Part shown: piece by piece, positions 44,329-57,500 of the stretch | Position numbering within the stretch: the stretch's first letter is position 1 | Layout: each line of letters begins with the position of its first letter | Assembly (NCBI GenBank): GCA_021234155.1 | Contig: JAJEKV010000092.1 | Coordinates: 2,986,561-3,050,560, forward strand | Source of the DNA: Isoetes taiwanensis | Lineage: Eukaryota > Streptophyta > Lycopodiopsida > Isoetales > Isoetaceae | Length of the DNA stretch: 64,000 nt | Direction of reading: 5' to 3' | Program-made: the position numbers and the translations under genes | Notes under the pieces: generated by a model | Database searches by the model: none | What the model was told of the DNA's origin: nothing | What the model saw: the letters and a program-made list of their open reading frames with translations, nothing else

Positions 44329-44884
44329 AGTTAACAAAGTTTAAAATGAAACGCACTTATTTGCTGGAAACGCACTTCAAAAGGAATCTTTGAAAGATTC
44401 CCTAAAATTCCCTTAAAAAAGTCCATTTTTAAGATTTTTTTGTGACAGGTGTGACAATTTAAGTAATTTAGGTACCATTTTTGAGGGGTTGATTGAACAT
44501 AACTTTCGTGCAAAAATTTTAAATAGCAATTTTCATCCTCCTAAACTAGAACAAAAAATAGTTACTTTTATAAAGTGTAGCAAAAAAGGGGCAATAAAAA
44601 AAATAGCAAGGGTAGTAGAGTGACAAAGAAGTGATATATTCAAGGTTGTGAAAATTGTACAAAATTATGAACAAAATTGTCAAAAATATAGGATATTTTG
44701 ACGCACAATCATCACCGCACTTTCTCGTTCTTTATATGTTCGAAGTCATCGGACAAACTTACATTTTGCAAAGAAGATCGGGATGCATCTCATCCTCGAC
44801 TCATTTATTCCCGATCACTCGAGCCTTCATCCTCGGCTTCACTCTCAAGACTGGATGTACTCGAGCGATCTTCTTCCTCACCGC

Positions 44885-47880
44885 CTACAAGTGAGTCTTC
44901 ATCATCATCTTTTTGGCCACCTTTTTGGCTTGTTTGTCTAATCCACATGCCGACCTTATTAAAGTTTGAGTGACCATACGTAACTTATTAGCAAAGCAAT
45001 GTCGAACAAAGTCATATGCAAGAACCTTTACTTCGGTTAGATCTATGATGCCAGTGCTTGCTTTGGACTTAGCTCTCTTTCCCACTCTGTTTTTACCATC
45101 TCCAAAGTATAACTCCCAATCGAAAGCATTGGCGGCCGATCGTTCTCATCCAAAGGCACTTTTAATTGAGTGGGAATTCCATCCTCTCTTGTTACCTCCA
45201 ATTACTTTAGCTAGCGAAATGGCCTCCCAGATTCATCATTATCAGCTGGGACAGCTATGAGCATTCCTTTCTGAATCTCAGAGACTGAACCATATACTCG
45301 AGCAACTTGTTGTGCTGTGCGTCTAGGGCCAGTGTACATGACTCTGTCATCTTCATCTGAGCTAGCCAATATCTCTACATGTTCCTCTTGATTCTCAACT
45401 TGCACAGGGAGGGTTTGCCTAGATGGCCAGTTGAATGTAACTGGTCTTCGACCTTGTAATGAAGCTTGCAACATGTCACGTTGCCGAGAAAAAAATTGAG
45501 GCCACCATAAAGCATCTGCCTCCCCAAAGTGGTTAGAGCAGGACTGAATACTTGTCTCAATACAATCCAATGATTTATTTGAGTCAAATGCTCTTCCCTC
45601 CTTTTTACTCTTTGTGATTTCTTTCAAGCTTTTTAGAGGCATTTGCTCTGCAGAGAGCATGGAACTAGTATTGGGGATGTTGCGAATGAATTGAATACTG
45701 GCTGGCGGGTCGCCAATTTTGCAAGGATGTGGCATATTTCTTTCCTTGTAAGATGGCCTTGCCATCTACAAGTGAAATTTTGATCCGATCTTTGAAATGT
45801 AATGTTTCTCAAGGGCTCAATAGCACAGTGACCTAGTTGATCTCTCCGAAAAATCCATTCCTTGAAATCATAAGTTTCTTCCAATAACTCGATGTCTGGA
45901 CGAGGATTGTAGGAATCTTGGATGACCTCAATCATGGTCGGGGGCTTAGAGCTTTTTTTTTCGCAAGACGTTTAGAGAACCTCATGAACATCCGATCAAT
46001 TTGGTCGTGTATGACCAACAAGCAGAAACCAATCTTCACCTTCTTGAAGATTTGTTTCTCTACTAGCATAGCACGATAGCAAACAACGCCTGATTCTTAT
46101 TTTCCCTTGTCGTGTTATCTAGTGAAGATACGAGCCGGCAGTATATGTTCTAGATTGGAAAGAAGCTTATTCAATATTGTGATAGTGAGATTTGGATCAG
46201 CATGAATGTTTGGATAATTCAAAAATGCCTTGCAAGATAGTTTTCCATTAAATACCATAGCACCAACAACATGCGGATGTATGAAATCTTCTTCAAAGAA
46301 GATCCTTAGGCACATTGACAAAATGTGGTAGGGTGGTCTTCTTCCGTCCATTCCATCAATAACAACCGATATGTAGTTGAGTGGTTGTTCCAAAGCTTTC
46401 TTCCTATGTTTTGTCAATTTTCTCCTTTCCAAAGATTGTTGTTCTCTGTGGCTTGTTCGGTTTCTCCTTCAATGCATCCGAAAGGAAAATATGTTTAGGA
46501 AAGAACCTACTTTTAAGTAGAACTAGGCAAGAACACGCCCGGAAGCTTACTTTTAGTGTGAAGTGTCCTTGCATTTTGTCTCGAGCTTTTAATTCGTGAG
46601 CATGTAGCACAAACAGACATCCTATGCTTTCTAGGAATGGACACGCCGAGAAAACTCTTTTTTCGAGAGCACGAGAAAGTAAGAGTAGCGGATAAAGCGT
46701 TCTCCACCTCAACACACATCTCCTTATAATTATCGTGAGACTTCTTGTTTCGTGGAAATTGTCACTCAAGTGGTACATAGGGCTATTAGGGAGTTTCTCA
46801 CAAGACTCCTTAAAGAAACCTTCCATCCAGGAAACACATTGAAGGGCATGAATTCTGGCTATGCCTCCTGAATGGCAGTAGTCATTGATGCCTGGATTCT
46901 TGTCAAGCCTTTTCTTCAGGCGGTCAAGTCGTCTGCTGCCTAAAGCATGAATCAATTTGAAGGCCGTTTGATTGATGTGATTGGCCACCACCAAATGTGT
47001 AAGTAAACTTCTCACCATCATCCGCCTAATATTGAAGGCTAAGTAGCCCCTTTGGTCTAGCAGAGTCATTGAACTGTAACTATCACGAATCAACCTCAAT
47101 TCCTTTAGTCCAATCTTAAGCAAACAACGTTGAGAACAACAGTGCTTTGTATGTGTTGCCCGCAAGTGAGCCTCGTCCATGAGTTTCTTTCTTCTAACAG
47201 TTGTACATGCTTTCTTGTGTAAGTTACGTTTAAGATTCTTACTTGCGGGGGGCTTTGAATTCAACAAGGAGTCTTGTGGCTTTGGTAGGTCCTCGTCCCG
47301 AGAGATCAACATGAGGTGTTTCTTCGTCCGAGAGATCAACTTGAGGTGTACTTGTAGATGCCGATAGGTTTGGTTGTGTGCAAGTCCTGGGGAGGTGCTT
47401 TCCCTCTCTCTCGGGAAAAAAGTAATCGAGGTTGGTGGCGTAGTTGACCAGCTCCCGGCGTCGTAGAACACAGAGGGAGTTGCGTGTCCGACCGCTTCCA
47501 CTTGTTGTAGTATCATTTAGCTAAATTGATGGAGTTGGCGTGATTTGCCTCCCGAGGATTTAGCCTTTACCGGTGGACTAAGGGCTTACGTGCTAAACCG
47601 AAGTGGAGGAGGTAGTCCGACCTCTCTAGCCCGAGGTGGGGTAAAACGCATTGGTGGGGGGCACACGCTCAAGAGCGGGTGTGGTGGAGTAAGTTGAACC
47701 GGTGGTGGAAGCCGAGGTGGTCGTGGCCGGAGTAAACTCAACAGTAGCCGGGGTTTGAATATCGAGGCGAATTTCCGAGGCTACTTTTCGGTGTCGGTTG
47801 AGGGGTGTGAATGTCATTGCGGGGAGGAAGCTTCGCGAAACAGACTTGGAGGCTCTGCAGTTCTTTTTTTCTCGAGCCAT
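44885..47880 (-). pseudogene. DUF7869-type transposon protein, multiply frameshifted
   Basis: The minus-strand start is at 47,880 (MAREKKNCRASKSVSRSFLP, then a Thr/Ser/Pro-rich tail), followed by a probable short intron and the main region from 47,516. Landmarks: CSQRCLLKIGLKELRLIRDS, RRLDRLKKRLDKNPGINDYC, ARIHALQCVSWMEGFF, PRKHRMSVCATCSRIKSSRQ, VVIDGMDG, and DPNLTITILNKLL. Then come DNTTRENKNQ, a degraded GHTHDQID-like stretch near 46,010, IQDSYNPRPDIELLEETYDF, and a C-terminal region with ENQEEHVEI and GPRRTAQQVARVYGSVSEI. I know this arrangement (DGMD, LDN..ENKN, HTH..ID) from proteins annotated DUF7869, found in many plant and animal mobile elements. The conserved Asp/Asn/His boxes fit an RNase-H-like transposase, but that is inference. 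At least three frameshifts or stops (near 46,720, 46,440, 46,090) break the frame. Confidence 0.72.
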
Positions 47881-47904
47881 ACTGGAAAGGTAGCGTCACA
47901 CCGT

Positions 47905-48028
47905 GTATAAATTTATACTGACGAAGAGCGGATGGTAAAAGTTTACATAGGATGGTATAAATTTATACGAGAAGGCAAACTTGTAGCCGATTGTATAAAT
48001 TTATACGAGAGATGGTATAAATTTATAC
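47905..48028. repeat. Palindrome cluster 1 in the divergent promoter region
   Basis: Four exact copies of the self-complementary 14-mer GTATAAATTTATAC start at 47,905, 47,955, 47,993 and 48,015. The first lies 25-38 bp upstream of the minus-strand gene's ATG (47,880). Because the palindrome contains TATAAA on both strands, it could double as a TATA box or act as a protein-binding site. These functions are inferred. Confidence 0.9.
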
Positions 48029-48201
48029 GGAGGAGGAAGACACACAAATTTATAACGAAAACTCACGCACACTTGTATTGGAATCTTTATGGAGAAACGC
48101 TTATAATAAACGGCACTTAGCGGGGGTACTTAAGCCCTGGCCGGGCCAATCCCTATTTTTCATATACGCAGCCGAGTCGGGCTAGGCGCCAAGGGTCCGC
48201 C

Positions 48202-48209
48202 TTTATATA
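48202..48209 (+). promoter_or_regulatory. TATA box of the plus-strand transposon gene
   Basis: TTTATATA sits about 50 bp before the ATG at 48,258 and is followed by a pyrimidine-rich CCCCCTCTTATTTGCTCTCC leader. Spacing suits a plant core promoter with a very short 5' UTR. Confidence 0.5.
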
Positions 48210-48329
48210 CCCCCTCTTATTTGCTCTCCCAACCTCTATACGCCAGTCCATACGGTCATGGCCACGTAAGTCTACTTTCCGCATTGTTTTAGTTTCTCTT
48301 TGGTTTTAATTTATAGGAGTGTAAGCCCC

Positions 48330-48480
48330 ACGGTAAATTTATACCGAGATGGCTCTAGATCGGTATAAATTTATATCGCCCGTGCTTTCGAACGGTATAA
48401 ATTTATATAAATTTATACCGCGAGCACTTATAAATTTATACCGCGGTACCCGCAAGTGCTCGAGCCGTATAAATTTATAC
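48330..48480. repeat. Palindrome cluster 2 in intron 1
   Basis: Exact or one-mismatch copies of GTATAAATTTATAC lie near 48,363, 48,395 (overlapping a second at 48,405), 48,428 and 48,467, plus a partial at 48,331. Several extend to CGGTATAAATTTATACCG. They lie in the first intron of the methyltransferase gene. One more isolated copy is at 49,099-49,112 in the next intron. Confidence 0.9.
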
Positions 48481-50171
48481 CGTTCGAGAACCATTTTAAA
48501 TTCTTGACGTCTAGTGCTCAACGAATGGTCCCGAACCTTAATATTTTGGTAATATTGTTGTGTTTTCAGCTTAAATGACACAAATGAAGTGTTAATTTAG
48601 TGTGGATTTTATGCCCTTTCATCCTCTTTTTCTACTGTTTTTGTGTTTCAAAAATTCGAAAAAGGTACAGTTTCTTTTGTAAAAATGGTTTTTTTTGCGC
48701 ATTACAGTGGCCCTAAGATCAAGTTTGTACTCGGAGGGTCATCATCAAAGGGTGCACCACCAGAGCCACAGACTTATGAACTAAAGGATCAGACTTGGTA
48801 CGTCCACAGGGGCGCAAGAGAGAGCAAACCCACTGAGGCGTACCTTTACTTGTGCAAACAATCAGGGAAGGGCAAGTTCAAGTCCGATGATTATTACCCT
48901 GCTGGCGAAATTATAAGCCTTGTTGCTACAGAGAACGATGATGAAGTTCTAATGCAGTGCAACCATGACAAGGGTCCCGTCCACTATGTTCTGAATACTA
49001 GAATGCTTAGAATTAGCATGTGCAAGCCTAAAGACGTACACGATTACATTGCGGACAATTACAAGAGCGGCTTCGTAAGTTATTCTTACATGCTTTCCGT
49101 ATAAATTTATACCGTCATTCTCTTAACTTAACCCCTCGCATTACAGGGGACGTAGTAGAAATTTTGATGTCAGTAGTGCTGTGCGACGAAAAAGTGTTGG
49201 TCAAGGGTCTATGGTACCCCCGTACTATCGAAGAGGAAGTAGTAGAGGAAGAGGAAGAGGAAGAGGAAGAGGAGGAACCAGTCGTCACAAAGGGAAAGGG
49301 TAGGAAGTATTCCCTGGTAGAAGATACACAGCCTCCTACCAAGAAAAAGTCTAGAATCACAAAGTCCTTGACTATAGAGGAGTCAGCAGAAGCTCTTCAG
49401 AAGGCTCCAGGAGCAGATATCGTTGTGAAGCCCGCAGATAAGTCGAGTGCTATTCTCAAGCGGGTTAATGAAACCAAACTGCTCAAGCAGACCATTTCTT
49501 TGACACTAAGCACTATTAAGAGGCCACCAAAAAATGAAGATGGGGTCAGAGTGCTTCAGGTCCGAAAGTTGTACGCGGCACATGTGGCTATCCTTAAGCA
49601 AAGAATGAGAAGGAATCCTCATGCCCATGTGTCGCCACTAGTTGTGATGGTGGACAGAAGTCAGTGCAACCAATTAAAAGACTACAAAAAGGCAGATTTT
49701 GAAGATTACACCTATTATGTTCTTGGAGGCACACATAGCTATAAAGCAAGAAAAGAACTTTCAAAAGAAGAAAGCCGTAATGAAGTCTGGAAGAGCGTGG
49801 AAGCACATATCTATGTGGGGGTGACAGACGAAGAGGCAAAAGTCATTGCCGTGAGTCACAATCTCGACAATGACTTCAGACTAAAGATGAGCCTAATAGA
49901 CAAGATTCGCTTCATGCACCGAGAGTACGTGGATTTCAAACAAGTGCATGGAGACGACTTCAAAAAACAAAAGAACAAGCTTCAAGAGCTTCGAGAAGCC
50001 TGTGTGACAGAGTGCTGCCTCAGTTATGATTCGGATAAGAAACCCATTATGGCTGTCAAACAATACGATAACTACTTTCAGCTAGCTTTCAGAGATGGTC
50101 AAGTAAGTAAAAGCTTCAATTCAATCTTTTGTAGTATGTTTAAGCGTGGTTAGAAGCTTGTAATAGCCTAG

Positions 50172-50371
50172 TGATTATAAATTTATACCGCAGTGCGGAC
50201 AGGTATAAATTTATACCGTGCACGGTCATGGATAAATTTATACCGTATAAATTTATATCACACCAGCACGGTATAAATTTATATCATGCCGAGACGGTAT
50301 AAATTTATACCACGGCGCCGTGCACAGTATAAATTTATACCATGGCCGCACTTGTATAAATTTATACCGTG
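50172..50371. repeat. Palindrome cluster 3 in intron 3
   Basis: About eight copies of TATAAATTTATA-centred palindromes lie in 200 bp between exons 3 and 4. Most are flanked by CGG/CCG or other G/C triplets. Spacing is 20-35 bp. Confidence 0.9.
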
Positions 50372-51422
50372 TTGAGTCGCCGTGCCCATCCTCTTACGCC
50401 ATTCAACACTAAACTTCGTTTGAACATTTACAGGTGTGGGATCTTCAAGAGAGAATTTTTTGTATGTTCGAAGATGGGGAGCTCAAAGAACAAGCTAGGG
50501 ACGCAGGAAAGAAACCAAAGAAAGGTGGTGAATCAAAACAAAAAAATATGAGCATTGTACCCTCGACGCCTTGCTTCTGTGGTCTTAAAAGCAAAGAAAA
50601 TATTTGTTCACTTTGTTGGAAAAAGTAGTTGCCAAAGAATTCACATTAGACGAGATGGCCAAGGAAGCTAAAACGTAAGCCTCACTTGCTATGCCAAGTT
50701 TTTTTCTACCTTTTTTTGTCTTACAATACTTTTCCCTCTGCAGTCAGAAAGACATTGTCACTTGCCAGGCCGAGTTAATGAAGCAGCTCAACCTAGAAGA
50801 CTGGGAGGAGTGCAAACTTTTGTACCCAAGTTGCACCACAGACAGTATCATCAGAGAGCACGCAGTTAACTTCAGTGGCTGGGTAAGTTTTGCAAACAAT
50901 ATGTTATGTGTTTGTGCCTTTGTCTTACATTACTCTTACAGAACAAGAAGAAGGGGCTACCAACTGGATTTTTAAACCTGGTTCGTAGGGCCAAAGAAGA
51001 GAGGCAAAGGCTTAAGGCAATTGAACAGGGTAGAGAGGTCGCCACTTCCAGTTTTGACTGTACATATGAGAGATTTACCACATTTGGTCAGGACGTCCAG
51101 TACAGGGTTGTTGAGGGTGATTGTACAAGGCTGGGGACTCTTTTAGACAAGCAAAATTTTACATTATGCATTGCAGATATTCCTTATGGATTTAAAATAA
51201 AGGATAGCGCTTTTGATGAGGAGGCTTTCACTCACGTGCAAGTCCGGGTCTTTCTGGATGGCCTAAAAGAAGTCACGACATCCCGAAAACCGAGGGTCAT
51301 CATTTTTCATTCCGACCTTCGAGACGATGTCGGTGCTTAAACCTATGGGAGCGGCCTCATACGCCCGGTTTAAAGCGTTTGGTAAGCTTCACAATTAACG
51401 CTTTTTGTTTTACGGTAACTCC

Positions 51423-51585
51423 ACTGTATAAATTTATACCACATCTGTCTTAAGGTTTAAATTTTAAAGGCTGGAACAACCGCGGTATAAATTTATACAG
51501 CAAGGCAATGTCTGTTCAAATTTATACGGCTTGCCGCCGTGGTATAAATTTATACAGCAAGGCAACCGTCGTATAAGTTTATACC
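51423..51585. repeat. Palindrome cluster 4 in intron 6
   Basis: Five copies (some with one mismatch, such as GTATAAGTTTATAC) lie between the exon with DIPY and the exon with the SAM loop. Confidence 0.9.
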
Positions 51586-52429
51586 GCCACACTACCGGGC
51601 TAACTTATTTTCCTTGTTTTCTTTTTACTAATTTCTAATTGCTGTTTTGCTTGGCAGGCTTAAAACAAACGTCAAAGGTCATGGTGGTGGTCCGCGCTTA
51701 GTGAGCTGTTTCGAGCATTTTCATATAGGTTTTTACAGCGCGGACACCAAAAAAACCATGATTCATTTTAACACGCAGAATGAGAAGACTCCTCCCTGCA
51801 ATGCATTTCAGTTCCCAAATTGTTCTGCGAAATTAAAGAGACCCACAAATGGCGACAAAGCGCCGTGGTGTCCCATTATCGGGGCCACGCCGCTTATTAA
51901 TAATTTGGTACGGTGGTTTTCTTGCCACGAGATCGGATCTTAGATGCCTTTTGGATCGGGCACCACGGCCAGTTTTGCCCTTAAAGCGCGGGCGCAATGT
52001 CGCCTCGGTCGACATAGACCCGGATAAAGTAAGTTTCATCGGGACCGGATAAGCTCTTGTGAATCCTTTCCCGATGAAAATGAGGAACTGGAGCAAAGAA
52101 CGGTGCTAGCGATGCTAAGGGCACTTACACGTAACATCGCTTCAAGAGTCGAACATGAACCTCCTTCTCGATCATGCCGTTTGCTTTCAATGCGGAAAAA
52201 GCGGCCGATGGCGCCGTTTTGGCGCGCCAGCTTGGTCGGCTAGGGTAGCGGCCATACCGCCCTCAGAGATCAACACGCCCAATGCAGCGGTGGATCGTGA
52301 AGACACAATCGAACTCCCCGAACGGCTAGCGGGGCCATGTATAATCGCTTCATCGAAAACGAGAGAAAAAGATCTGGCTGGTTTGGGGCAAATGGTTTTC
52401 TTTTTTTAGGTGGCGAGTCTTGTAGCATT

Positions 52430-53354
52430 TTCCTCTAACGAGGTAAGTTCTTTGGTGCTTTTTGCGCTATGTCATACGACATGCTTGAAATGGTAGATCC
52501 ATCCGAAGATAGATCCATTTGGAAGCTGGCCTATAAGGCTAAGAACGAGACTACAGGACTAGATAAAGATTATTATTTGCATTTCATATTCAATAGGGAT
52601 ATCACAATCTGGCTTTGATGGAAGAATTTTAGATATGGCTCCTTTTTTCCGCTCTTCCTTGCTAGCGGGAAGATCTGATTATACAAATGATAAATCGGAA
52701 GATATATTTTGTCTCAGCATGGATTTGCGTGTTTGTCCGGGGTTATTAATTTATGTTGAAGCGGCGAGACAATACATGGTATGATAGTTTGATATATTGA
52801 TGGAATTTATTAGCATCTTCATTATTTTTCAAGTAATCGTTGCGGCTTGAAGAAAAACCACCAAGTTGAAGCTTGAGTATAATTTGGTAATCGATGCCAA
52901 ATTTACCTTACCAATTTATTGGATAAGGTTTGCTCAAATGTAATTTGGTGCACCGATGCCAAATTCACATTATCATCTCCAATTCATTGGACTTAGTTTG
53001 CTCAAATATCGCAACGTTTGAGTGAATGCTAAATCAGTCTTGATATGCCCGAATTTCTTCCTAATTGTCTACTTTCATACATATATGAGTCCGGGCCTTT
53101 CTTCCTACTTCGGTTCTTACACCACCGCACTTTCCTCGAATAAGATTTATCATTTCCAGTGCCTTATGGCTACTTCGGATTATCTTGTATAAGTTGGTTA
53201 CTATGCGGATGGATTCAATAAGTTTTCTGCATGTAGAGGATGAAGATGTTTGAGATTACTCCTGTAGTAATCCTCTGCAAGCAGCAAGACATTGTAATTT
53301 TTATTTATTATATATAAAATATAAAAATCGTTCTCTCAAAAAAAAAAAAAAAAA
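52430..53354 (+). mobile_element. Probable poly(A)-ended retroposon inside the methyltransferase gene
   Basis: The sequence between about 52,430 and 53,336 has no coding match to the flanking methyltransferase gene. It ends ...TATATAAAATATAAAAATCG TTCTCTC followed by 18 A (53,337-53,354), typical of a non-LTR retrotransposon 3' end. The gene resumes at a CAG acceptor at 53,361. A degenerate ~65-bp repeat (GATGCCAAATT... GTTTGCTCAAAT) lies at about 52,890-53,010. The 5' edge is a guess, and no target duplication could be fixed. Confidence 0.5.
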
Positions 53355-54044
53355 CTTACACAGAAATCCAGCCTCCACTTACAGGAAGAAGAGATGAGGA
53401 GGTGGAGTTTGTCGACTTAGAGCCTGTGGTGCCCGAGCTAGAGAAACAGCCTGTACCTGTGCCATTGGAATCAGAAGCAGGCGTCTCTGCTATCATACCC
53501 TCACAAGAGTCAGATCCTAAGGGGTACGAGAGTCCTGTGGACTGGGAAGAACCACCTCCTCCACCAGTTGTAGTCAAGATTACAAACTAACTTTCATTGT
53601 AAACTATGTGCTAAGAAATATAACATATTTTGATGATGATTTTTAATCTGAAAGCTTTGTCTCTTCAACAGTGCTTAATTAGAGCAACTCTTTCTTGCTC
53701 CATGATTTCACACTCTTTGTCTTCCCTATGTTTAATTTTCTTAGTACTTATATTAAGCTTGCAAAAAGACAAACTGTATTTCCTTCTATTTTCAGCAATA
53801 AATACTTATTCAGCTTTTAAATTTAATGTCACCCTCCTCAAAACAAGCTTTTTTTTTTTGCCCTCTTTAAAACATGAAAAGGCTTCAAAAATGTTGCTTT
53901 TTTGGGGGTATTTCGAATGCTAATTGCTTAACAATCTATTTTGCTCCCTATTTTGTCTGTTTTTTTCAAGTTTCCAATTTTTATAAAGGAATCTTTCAAA
54001 CGCACTTCTTAAATAAGTGCGTTTCATTTTAAACCTTGTTAGTT

Positions 54045-54268: not shown

Positions 54269-54492
54269 TGTTGATCAAATGAAGTCATCTTGACACGTGG
54301 CACCCACAAAACCGTCACCTTCTCGGTGCAACAATCTTAGGAGAAACTCTAGGAGAAACTCTAGGAGAAACTCTTGCATGTTACTGTTTTCAGTATTGCT
54401 GTTTTGGTATTAAAGGATCCTTTCGATCCTCTCTTTGTACTCAGTTCTGGCATTCAATAGAATCTGTCGCCTTGCTATTCACCTGGGTTACA
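54269..54492 (+). repeat. Copia 5' LTR
   Basis: It starts TGTTGATCAAATGAAGTC and ends CTGGGTTACA. It contains three AGGAGAAACTCT-type units where the 3' LTR has one. Confidence 0.97.
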
Positions 54493-54504
54493 TGGTATCA
54501 GAGC
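54493..54504 (+). promoter_or_regulatory. Primer binding site (initiator tRNA-Met)
   Basis: TGGTATCAGAGC, complementary to the 3' end of plant tRNA-iMet, lies directly after the 5' LTR as in most plant copia elements. Confidence 0.95.
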
Positions 54505-54535
54505 ACAGGTGATATCTTCAAGATCTATAGGTAAG

Positions 54536-57500
54536 ATGGATTCTAGCTCTTCCTCTACAATCGCCCCTGCCGCTGTCCAAACCCCTGCATCGCCTGATCT
54601 CCTTGACCCCATCAAAGGCTTGGAGAAATTTGGAATCGAGAGGTTCAAAGGGGATGATTTTCGCATGTGGAAATATCAAATCTCCACTTATTTCATGGCA
54701 GCAGGCTTATGGGAGGTGATAAACGGCACTGCTGCACGACCTGGCGGTGAAAATATGAGCCCTGATGCATTACGAAAATGGATTGCCAAAGACTCTAGAG
54801 CACACTCAGTTCTGATCAGCAGCATCCATCCCTCTATCTTGCACAGGCTCAAGGTTTCCAACTCTGCTCATGAGTGCTGGAGCAAATTACTCCGCATGTG
54901 CGAAGAGAAATCTGTAGCCGCTCAAGTGATGCTAAGGCACAAACTCTATGCCACCAGGCTTGGTGATGGAGAATCCATGAGTGCCCATATTGCTAAAATG
55001 CGCAGCATCATGGACCAACTTGATGAGTCTGGTCCAATCAAACTTTGTGGAAACTGCTCTGCCTATGCTGAGCAGCACAATTATCTTGCCCTTTTGTCCA
55101 GCCTTCCTCCAGCATACGAAAATTTGGTTGTGGTTCTTTCAAACCACCAAGGCACTCTGGTTTGGGAGGAGGTTAGTGCCCGGCTGCTGCAAGAAGAGGC
55201 CCGGATTCAGCAAAATGGAGCCACTGAAACTCAGATGGCTCTCTTCTCTGGCATGCGTCCCAAAGCCGAGAACAAGACAAATGATGGACACAAACCCAAT
55301 GCGGGAAAAGTCAGGCCCAAATGTGATTATTGCAAACGCAAAGGGCATCTCAAGGAGGGATGCTGGAAGCTGATTGCTGATCAAGCAAATGGGAAACTGC
55401 CCACTGCAAATTGCACCACTGATGAAGTTCAGCCTGTTCAGCCAGCTCATGCCTTCATGACCATTCACACCTCCTATTCTGATCTAGATGTATGGTGGTT
55501 GGACACTGCTGCATCCAACCATATGACTGGATGCAAAAATTTCTTTGTCAAGATGCAAGCATTACCCCAGTTGCATATTGTCACCACCAGCAATGGAAGC
55601 AAGTTGCAGTCTCAATATGGTGATGTAAGTATCAAGATTGCTCCTCAGAAATTTCTTACCCTTTCAAATGTTCTTTATGTTCCAGGACTGGACCATAACC
55701 TTGTTTGCATTGGGCAAATTGCTGATCTTGGTTTATCCATCACATTTGATCGCACTCAGGCCATTATTACCAAAGAAGCTGAAACCATTGCTTTTGGGAT
55801 GCGGTTTGGCAATATTTACAAGTTGCATACATCATCTAATGAGCTAGCTCTTCATACTCAAGCAACATCCATGGGCTCTCTTTGGCATCAGCGCCTTGGG
55901 CATGCTGGCTTTGATTGCCTTCAACATACAACATCTCTCAATGCTGCCACTGGCCTCCCTGCTACATTTCAGCAGGAGCCTTGTGAAATTTGTCACCTTG
56001 GCAAGCAACACAAGCTCCCTTTTCCGCTCTCTGAAAATCGGGCATCATCCCCAGCATTGCGCATTCATTCTGATGTTTCTGGTCTTCATCGTCCCACAAA
56101 AAGTGGCTTCACCTATTTTCTGACATTTATTGATGATTATTCGCGGTTTGTCACAGTCTACTTCCTCAAACACAAAAGTGAGGTATTTGGTTTTTTCCAG
56201 CAATTTGTTGCTTTGGTCCGCACTCAACTTGACAAACCAGTCAAAGCTCTTATGAGCGACAATGGTGGAGAATACTGCTCCAATGCCTTCAAACTCTTTT
56301 GTGCAAGTCAAGGCATTGAACATCGGACTATCATTCCTGGAGACTCTGAGCAAAATGGACTTGCTGAACGCATGAACCGGACACTCAAGGATATGGCTCG
56401 CTGTCTCTTAATTCAAGCCCAACTTCCATTGCAATTTTGGCTGAAGCCCTTAGTACAACAGTGTATCTCAGAAATCGCATTGCATCTCGCAAAGCTCAAA
56501 AGACTCCTCTTGAGATGTGGAATGGAACTCGCCCTAACCTCGCTCATGTTCGAGTTTTTGGATGTTTGGCCTTTGCTCTTCAGCGCCATCGAGCAGGAAC
56601 TTTTGCACCACGCAGCTTACGCACCATTTTCGTTGGTTATTCCATCACTCAGAAGGGATATAAGCTCTTGGACCCGTGCACTGGCAAATTCTTCTTTAGC
56701 AGGCATGTTCATTTCATGGAAGATCGCTTGGGATCTGCTCTCCTTTCTCCTGCACTTTTACCTGCAGACCTCATTAGTCTTCCAACAATCATCTCCTCTG
56801 ATGACATTGATCAAATTCCTGCTGCTGCCACTGCCTCCACTCCTGCAGACGTTGCCCTTGGATCATCTCCTTCTGCCACATCAGCCTCACCTGGCCTGCT
56901 CCTTCTCTGGTTCCACTTGTGGATTCTTCCCAGCCTCGGAGATCTGCTCGCACTTGGAAGCCCACAGCCAAGATGCTCACGTATCACCAAGCTGCCTTCA
57001 ATGTGCATGATCCCACTGTTCCTGCCACTTACAAGCAAGCTTGTTCTGATGTTCATGCAGCCCAATGGCATGCCGCAATGGATGAGGAAATGGCAGCTCT
57101 CCGCCGTAATCACGTGTGGTCCCTTTGTGCACTTCCTGCAGGACGGCAGCCTGTTACTTCGAAATGGCTTTACAAGATCAAGATGCGTGCTGATGGATCC
57201 CTTGATCGATTCAAAGCTCGCCTGGTTGCTCGCGGCTTCTCTCAGGTTGAAGGTGTTGATTTCCATGAGACCTTCTCTCCCGTGGTGAAAATGACTTCCA
57301 TTCGGATCCTTCTTGCTTTAGCAGCAGCTCATGATATGGAGATCCATCAAATGGACGTGCAAGCTGCATTCTTGTATGGTGATCTTTCAGAGGAAGTTTA
57401 CTTGCAGCAGCCTGAAGGCTACATTCAGCCCGGCGAGGAGCATTTGGTCTGGAGACTTCACAAGGCCCTGTATGGCTTGCGACAGGCACCCCGAGCTTGG

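Follow-up and report, generated by a model that had tools for sequence, protein, structure and literature searches.

Genes that join a ParB-like domain to a DNA methyltransferase are already known from algal transposons. One occurs in the Sola1 element of Ectocarpus, for which self-modification has been proposed, and the accessible part of that report also cites green and red algal cases (Dinatale et al. 2025, PMC12477816). Here we describe such a gene in a DNA transposon of the lycophyte Isoetes taiwanensis, within a 64,000-nucleotide stretch of contig JAJEKV010000092.1 (the window; positions are counted from its first letter unless another locus is named, and comparison sequences have L numbers). 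An earlier, sequence-only reading of this DNA had seen in the fusion a sign of capture and reuse by a eukaryotic transposon; as a kind of protein it is preceded by the Ectocarpus case, as described in the accessible text (PMC12477816). That reading had given the range 48258-53590; those are the limits of the gene, and the element itself is larger, at 44333-54040. The main new finding is that the element carries arrays of short palindromes. We found no report of the arrays, or of their switch between subfamilies, in the open-licence literature searched.

Compared by description, the Isoetes and Ectocarpus systems each belong to a DNA transposon and have a single protein that unites a ParB-like domain with an N4C/N6A methyltransferase, its gene running on the opposite strand to that of the transposase (PMC12477816). 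The Isoetes element differs in its lycophyte host, its high copy number and its three subfamilies, each with its own palindrome array, whereas the accessible text on Ectocarpus makes no mention of arrays (PMC12477816).

A second likeness is to the VANC proteins of Arabidopsis VANDAL elements, as far as the accessible parts of two papers describe them. The short motifs bound by VANC21 and VANC6 are specific to each family and form arrays within introns and in non-coding DNA upstream (PMC5735166), and silencing is lifted when such motifs are bound (PMC5735166, PMC10398659). The two systems share an element-encoded protein and family-specific motif arrays that lie mainly outside coding sequence and diverge between related families (PMC5735166, PMC10398659). 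The VANC21 motif given there, YAGTATTAY, is non-palindromic, whereas the Isoetes motifs are palindromes. The Isoetes element also differs in its 4-bp target-site duplication (TSD) and in having a ParB-methyltransferase as accessory protein. VANDALs are Mutator-like, and to our knowledge VANC has no methyltransferase. No VANC-like family was among our Pfam hits, and no direct comparison with a VANC sequence was made.

Bacterial and phage ParB-methyltransferases (PF02195 plus PF01555) have the same domain order, ParB followed by N6_N4_Mtase. We found this order in two of six bacterial and viral-contig proteins scanned, L058 (over both cut-offs) and L072 (ParB_N just under its cut-off); the other four had no ParB_N match. 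Both L058 and L072 have DPPY at the catalytic motif, and the Isoetes matches are limited to short methyltransferase segments with 31-57% identity. A search of viral contigs for relatives matched 46 stretches by pattern and confirmed none. Terminal inverted repeats (TIRs), TSDs and transposase pieces argue away from a giant-virus origin of the element. In the plasmid centromeres sopC and parS a ParB-fold protein is encoded beside clustered palindromic sites. The Isoetes element differs from these in that no ParA partner was seen, the methyltransferase is fused and GERRxRA is absent.

Palindrome arrays and protein subfamilies

The palindromes have the frame GTAT-N6-ATAC in all three subfamilies, and the central six bases differ. 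The core of subfamily 1, GTAT-AAATTT-ATAC, is a perfect palindrome (GTATAAATTTATAC). The introns of subfamily 2 (the DLPY type) carry GTATTCCGGAATAC, with the core GTAT-TCCGGA-ATAC, and subfamily 3 (L022) carries GTATGAATTCATAC, with the core GTAT-GAATTC-ATAC. The window contains 22 GTATAAATTTATAC sites at up to one mismatch, against 0.02 expected from shuffles, all within 47905-51584: four upstream of the start codon, five in intron 1, one in intron 2, eight in intron 3 and four in intron 6. The transposase half of the copy (44333-47904) contains none. Across the assembly (1,658,258,908 bases in 1110 contigs, to which all genome-wide counts refer) exact copies of the long palindromes number 7218 for GGTATAAATTTATACC and 2585 for GTGTATTCCGGAATACAC, and the backward-read control of each occurs zero times. 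Not one of 98 in-gene sites falls within an exon, though exons make up 71% of the span from first to last exon; the sites come from 48 loci of a 56-locus set, the other eight having no exon match. In L022 (2267-2510) a unit of about 115 bp, present as three tandem copies, contains the subfamily-3 palindromes.

The placement bears on the notion that the arrays are intronic RNA hairpins, serving splicing or small-RNA production. In its favour, 18 of the window's 22 sites fall within introns and the core is perfectly palindromic, but the remaining four lie upstream of the start codon and complete gene-poor copies retain arrays. We judge this explanation very improbable.

Palindrome type follows protein subfamily almost without exception. 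We typed 66 loci, or joined neighbour pieces, by their best-scoring ParB, methyltransferase or exon-2 match, with unanimous exon typing except in L050 and L053 (one vote each for subfamilies 1 and 3). Core 1 was found in 23 of 23 subfamily-1 units and core 2 in 22 of 25 subfamily-2 units, with no core in L001, L002 and L032. Core 3 was found in 6 of 8 subfamily-3 units, the others being L054 (none) and L035 (core 2). Overall, 51 of 52 units having both a typed exon and a core carry the core of their own subfamily. Ten units had no typed exon (six with core 1, four with core 2), and two cores never occurred together (0 of 66 units). At the level of loci, six of seven in subfamily 3 have one to three exact sites (the exception is again L054); within this set, L051 had been selected through its palindrome, and the palindrome listing also includes the location of L050.

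Starting from the palindromes leads back to the same transposon family. All 10 listed subfamily-1 clusters were fetched and all lie in it: ParB and methyltransferase exons are present in L040 and L047; a transposase-gene piece is found in L044, together with exon 2, and in L045; and L039, L041, L042, L043, L046 and L048 are homologous to the element ends and have no ParB or methyltransferase exons. For subfamily 2, eight of ten clusters (10 of the first 11 listed) adjoin subfamily-2 exons. To avoid circularity, loci were also selected by their TIRs (10 of the first 14 places, the other four being already sampled), and all ten have exact sites. Three of these loci contain a complete element, about 2.2 kb long and flanked by a perfect TSD, that has no ParB or methyltransferase exons; their exact sites number 5, 8 and 4. 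Exon-2-like remnants persist in some gene-poor copies.

The arrays are regular. Of 122 subfamily-1 gaps no longer than 110 bp, 62 measure 28-32 bp, and 15 of 20 subfamily-2 gaps measure 41-43 bp; these spacings are near three and four helical turns, respectively. We do not claim helical phasing of sites: for subfamily 1, R is 0.40 at 10.5 bp but 0.38-0.40 over 10.0-11 bp. Beyond the core, the arms are symmetrical in subfamily 2 (0.575 versus 0.478 in mismatched pairs, a value reached in 0 of 500 shuffles) and slightly so in subfamily 1 (0.329 versus 0.300; 3 of 500 shuffles). Core divergence is 0.019-0.072, compared with 0.132-0.231 for other non-exon DNA, and is lower in four of four comparisons, a value biased downward by up to about half by the definition of sites in the window copy; in the comparison with L033, 78 core positions were gapped. 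In subfamily 3, 14 of 14 units share an identical 14-mer; these units were chosen for an exact match to it, and their flanks are 89% identical.

Such regularity could also be expected of selfish mini-repeats, or of hairpin-prone tandem repeats in non-coding DNA, that serve no protein. The regular spacing, the site-specific arm symmetry and the location of the L022 sites within a roughly 115-bp tandem repeat would all agree with this. It accounts less well for outer GTAT and ATAC bases that are common to three subfamilies with different centres, or for cores that have changed less than the remaining non-exon DNA in all four comparisons, with the biased site definition just noted. We consider this origin decidedly unlikely.

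The encoded protein and its relatives

The gene extends on the plus strand from a start codon at 48258 to a stop at 53590 and has seven exons, with GT/AG borders where checked. The motifs cited in the sequence-only reading sit where it put them, and the spliced gene is real and lies inside a TIR-bounded transposon. Both GGTHSYKARKEL and TDEEAKVIAVSHNLDND fall within a single 373-aa open frame (49032-50153), and the GTT loop and VDIDPDK are located in exon 7. The window copy is broken by early stops in exons 4 and 6, frame breaks in exon 7 and a poly(A)-ended insertion (52131-53353) that is probably a retroposed sequence. Identical exon order was found in L033, where exon 4 is disturbed and the frame is open in exons 2, 3, 5 and 6 and in the beginning of exon 7. 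Separate transcripts for exons 2-3 and 6-7 had been named as what would overturn the fusion; because this exon order with open frames recurs in L033, the two parts most likely belong to one gene.

By its predicted structure, exon 3 has the alpha+beta fold of the ParB/sulfiredoxin superfamily. The assignment, and with it the ParB-like call of the earlier reading, rests on the predicted fold because sequence profiles match weakly. In the window copy there are PHROG ParB matches with E 0.021 and 0.13, and in relatives matches to the NCBIfam ICE parB model (0.0014, L028) and to DUF6551 (0.016, L001). The fold model was built from 16 aligned copies and has a mean predicted local distance difference test (pLDDT) score of 61, with core blocks at 80-91. 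Residues 115-245 of the model match Myxococcus xanthus ParB with CDP (7bnk) at Z 11.0, over 93 residues at 2.1 A, followed by Noc, Caulobacter ParB, KorB and then sulfiredoxin; Foldseek ranks Noc top (2e-4). A loop GG[TN]HS[YF]KAR is present in 14 of the 16 aligned rows; L012 and L040 each depart from it by a single substitution.

The exon-2 domain is predicted, with low confidence (model pLDDT 59), to be mostly beta and is strongly diverged among subfamilies (15-26% identity). It has no Pfam match and a best structural match of Z 4.9, and we left it unnamed. Assignment of exon 2 to a known reader domain was dropped on the same two results.

We assign the second half of the protein, from its sequence, to the beta-class N6-adenine/N4-cytosine DNA methyltransferases of CcrM-like type. 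This identity rests on relatives because the window copy is broken; its exons 6 and 7 gave no methyltransferase match in Pfam. PF01555 matches over the curated cut-off were obtained for L003 (E 5.7e-19) and L001 (2.1e-17), and the NCBIfam CcrM model matches L033 at 1.1e-11. The nearest solved chains are MboIIA, CcrM and RsrI. A D[IL]PY motif followed by DAFSGSGTT occurs in L033, L022, L001 and L020; this is the order of the PF01555 class, in which motif IV, (D/N/S)PP(Y/F), precedes the FxGxG loop, with I or L, not P, as second residue. The amino-methyltransferase proposed by the sequence-only reading is thus borne out in relatives and has no profile match in the window itself. Its emphasis on DIPY as a notable active-site variant was overstated. 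DLPY occurs in other copies, and pattern matches before the S-adenosylmethionine (SAM) loop of bacterial relatives include D-A-P-Y and D-V-P-Y; with the second residue variable and D and P-Y constant, DIPY is not special, and we rejected it as a key variant.

The gene is widespread in the genome. At least 150 PF01555 matches over the cut-off were found (150 of 1444 candidates scored), along with at least 127 matches to the window ParB exon (125 of 4131 candidates scored) and at least 116 in a search with the L022 ParB exon. We rejected contamination or a lone stray bacterial gene as explanations, given the introns, the TIRs and the at least 127 ParB-exon matches across the assembly. When six open subfamily-1 ParB exons were compared pairwise, the ratio of nonsynonymous to synonymous substitution (dN/dS) lay at 0.03-0.11 for 14 of 15 pairs and at 0.23 for the remaining pair, at dS 0.07; open copies were used by choice, which lowers the value, and comparisons between subfamilies were saturated. 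The ParB exon of subfamily 1 is under purifying selection. Three divergent subfamilies keep the gene, and protein identity to L022 falls to 62% in L050. An intron-bearing ParB-methyltransferase fusion in a TIR transposon, as first read from the window, is thus found in many copies and under purifying selection.

These results also concern the idea that the ParB-methyltransferase is passive captured cargo of no use to the element. The window copy and many others are broken, and gene-poor copies are common in our samples, as would be expected of cargo. The low dN/dS in 14 of 15 subfamily-1 pairs (of chosen open copies) and the retention of the gene by three divergent subfamilies point the other way, and we regard passive cargo as very improbable.

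Proposed recognition of the arrays

We lean modestly towards the view that the accessory ParB-methyltransferase recognizes its own element at the GTAT-N6-ATAC arrays and probably methylates them. The protein would bind clustered palindromes in the promoter region and introns of its own element and would methylate them; gene-poor copies with the same TIRs and arrays could profit in trans. Binding of GTAT-N6-ATAC palindromes by the protein seems likely, and their methylation by it somewhat more probable than its absence. The sequence-only reading had allowed for marks on the element or its host. The arrays, a feature beyond that reading, lend indirect support to marking of the element itself.

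Several observations weigh against this proposal. The ParB assignment is one source of doubt: sequence matches to ParB are weak, window exon 3 scores 0.00068 to the unrelated YfcE model, and GERRxRA, the usual ParB CTPase motif, is not present in the 16 aligned rows, its place being taken by GG[TN]HS[YF]KAR, which we take to be nearer to the sulfiredoxin type (GGCHR loop). We identified no separate target-recognition or helix-turn-helix domain in the protein. The subfamily-3 16-mer occurs just 3 times genome-wide and its backward control once, the three all adjoining subfamily-3 genes (L051 also has a subfamily-3 ParB match). L001, L002 and L032 in subfamily 2 and L054 in subfamily 3 have no exact core in the stretch examined, and L104 and L106 have core-2 sites without any matching exon. 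L035 combines a subfamily-3-type methyltransferase piece with a core-2 site (at 1637). About 7 kb away, the same contig carries L049 with its subfamily-3 ParB exon, and a nested insertion splitting ParB and methyltransferase pieces is a possible source of the mismatch. Finally, common descent within subfamilies, without selection, could also link palindrome and protein types.

The main rival holds that the palindromes are sites for the transposase, or for a host transcription factor, in control of transposition or of the promoter, with the ParB-methyltransferase acting elsewhere or nonspecifically. Subterminal sites of the TnpA type are known from Spm. The Isoetes arrays occupy the promoter region between divergent genes, gene-poor copies with the same TIRs keep them, and L109, L112, L113 and L114 have one site about 470-505 nt inside the right TIR, a position with no such site in the window copy. 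However, sites concentrate in the introns and 5' region of the ParB-methyltransferase gene and the transposase half of the window copy has none. In 51 of 52 units with both, core type and ParB-methyltransferase subfamily agree, though the core may track the transposase subfamily equally well. We consider this rival unlikely, while giving it more weight than the other alternatives.

Returning to recognition by the ParB-methyltransferase, its outcome could be that the element evades host silencing or is licensed to transpose, by analogy with VANC on VANDAL; this we put forward tentatively. Anti-silencing appears the most likely outcome, with transposition licensing and autoregulation as alternatives, because the layout (intron and upstream arrays, none in exons, a family-specific motif and regular repeats) is the VANC layout. 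A more specific version, which we likewise hold with less than even confidence, is that the protein is a ParB-clamp-like methyltransferase that would load at its own parS-like arrays. The central six bases would have switched together with the protein, and each subfamily and its gene-poor parasites would mark their own DNA only. Such a system would be an independently arisen counterpart of VANC based on N6-methyladenine (6mA) or N4-methylcytosine (4mC).

If true, this would show how self-marking machinery of bacterial type can be carried by a transposon, and motif-array evolution like that of VANC would have a second, independent example. Specific use of 6mA or 4mC in plants is disputed. The presence in one family of an enzyme, its likely targets and natural specificity variants makes the question testable.

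Element ends, transposase-like gene and feature coordinates

Homology of L014/L015 and L016/L017 to the window starts at 44332-44333 and ends at 54041, with different flanks outside. Reading the element ends as AACAAAG...CTTGTT gives a 4-bp TSD, found in eight of nine complete elements (the window copy, L014/L015, L016/L017, L039, L046, L110, L115 and L117). The duplications are AAGT and ATAC in L014/L015 and L016/L017, AAAT and ATAG in L039 and L046, and GATT, GGAA and TGTC in the TIR-selected L110, L115 and L117. In the remaining element, L048 (188-2387), which is gene-poor, the TIRs are intact and the flanking tetranucleotides mismatched. Sola DNA transposons have a TSD of 4 bp, according to the accessible part of one account (PMC10741241), and we class the family as Sola-like. 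No Sola transposase was named in the Pfam scans, which gave pieces of DUF7869 (PF25273) alone. In the window these score E 5.9e-5 (46115-46468) and 0.0094 (45633-45971), both under the curated cut-off, and in other copies 1e-7 (L016) and 7.4e-20 (L021).

Table 1. Features of the Isoetes taiwanensis element in the window
Feature	Position	Strand	Basis or remark
Whole DNA transposon	44333..54040	.	Homology limits against L014/L015 and L016/L017; TIRs and TSD read
TSD AGTT, 4 bp, window copy	44329-44332 and 54041-54044		Flanking the element
Left TIR, 31 nt as aligned	44332..44362	+	97% complementary to 54011-54041; first base possibly flank
Degenerate transposase-like gene, divergent, DUF7869 (PF25273) pieces	44500..47895 (outer limits approximate)	-	Pfam profile
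Array between divergent genes and in intron 1, 9 sites GTATAAATTTATAC	47905..48480	.	Up to one mismatch
Exon 1 (ATGGCCAC)	48258..48265	+	ATG and GT donor
Exon 2, N-terminal domain	48708..49074	+	AG/GT borders
Single site, intron 2	49099..49112	.	
Exon 3, predicted ParB/sulfiredoxin-like domain, loop GGTHSYKAR	49147..50102	+	Open frame; predicted fold
Array, intron 3, 8 sites	50175..50367	.	
Exon 4, early stop in window copy	50434..50674	+	Same position as exon 4 of L033 and L020
Exon 5	50744..50882	+	GT/AG borders
Exon 6, first methyltransferase half, catalytic ADIPYGF	50942..51381	+	Premature stop near 51340
Array, intron 6, 4 sites	51426..51584	.	
Exon 7, first part, SAM-loop half	51658..52130	+	Frame broken here; open in L033 (DAFSGSGTT...DIDPDK)
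Insertion ending in poly(A), ~1.2 kb, in exon 7	about 52131..53353	.	8-bp TSD ACTTACAC; missing from L015 and L017
Exon 7, rest, acidic proline-rich C-terminal tail to stop	53354..53590	+	Collinear with L015 and L017; open reading frame 53318-53590
Right TIR, 31 nt as aligned	54011..54041	-	Paired with left TIR; last base possibly flank

The ParB-methyltransferase and DUF7869 genes are divergent in the window and face each other in L020/L021 of subfamily 2. Just beyond the right TIR, an 849-aa open frame (54461-57010) resembles, by eye, Copia gag, protease and integrase.

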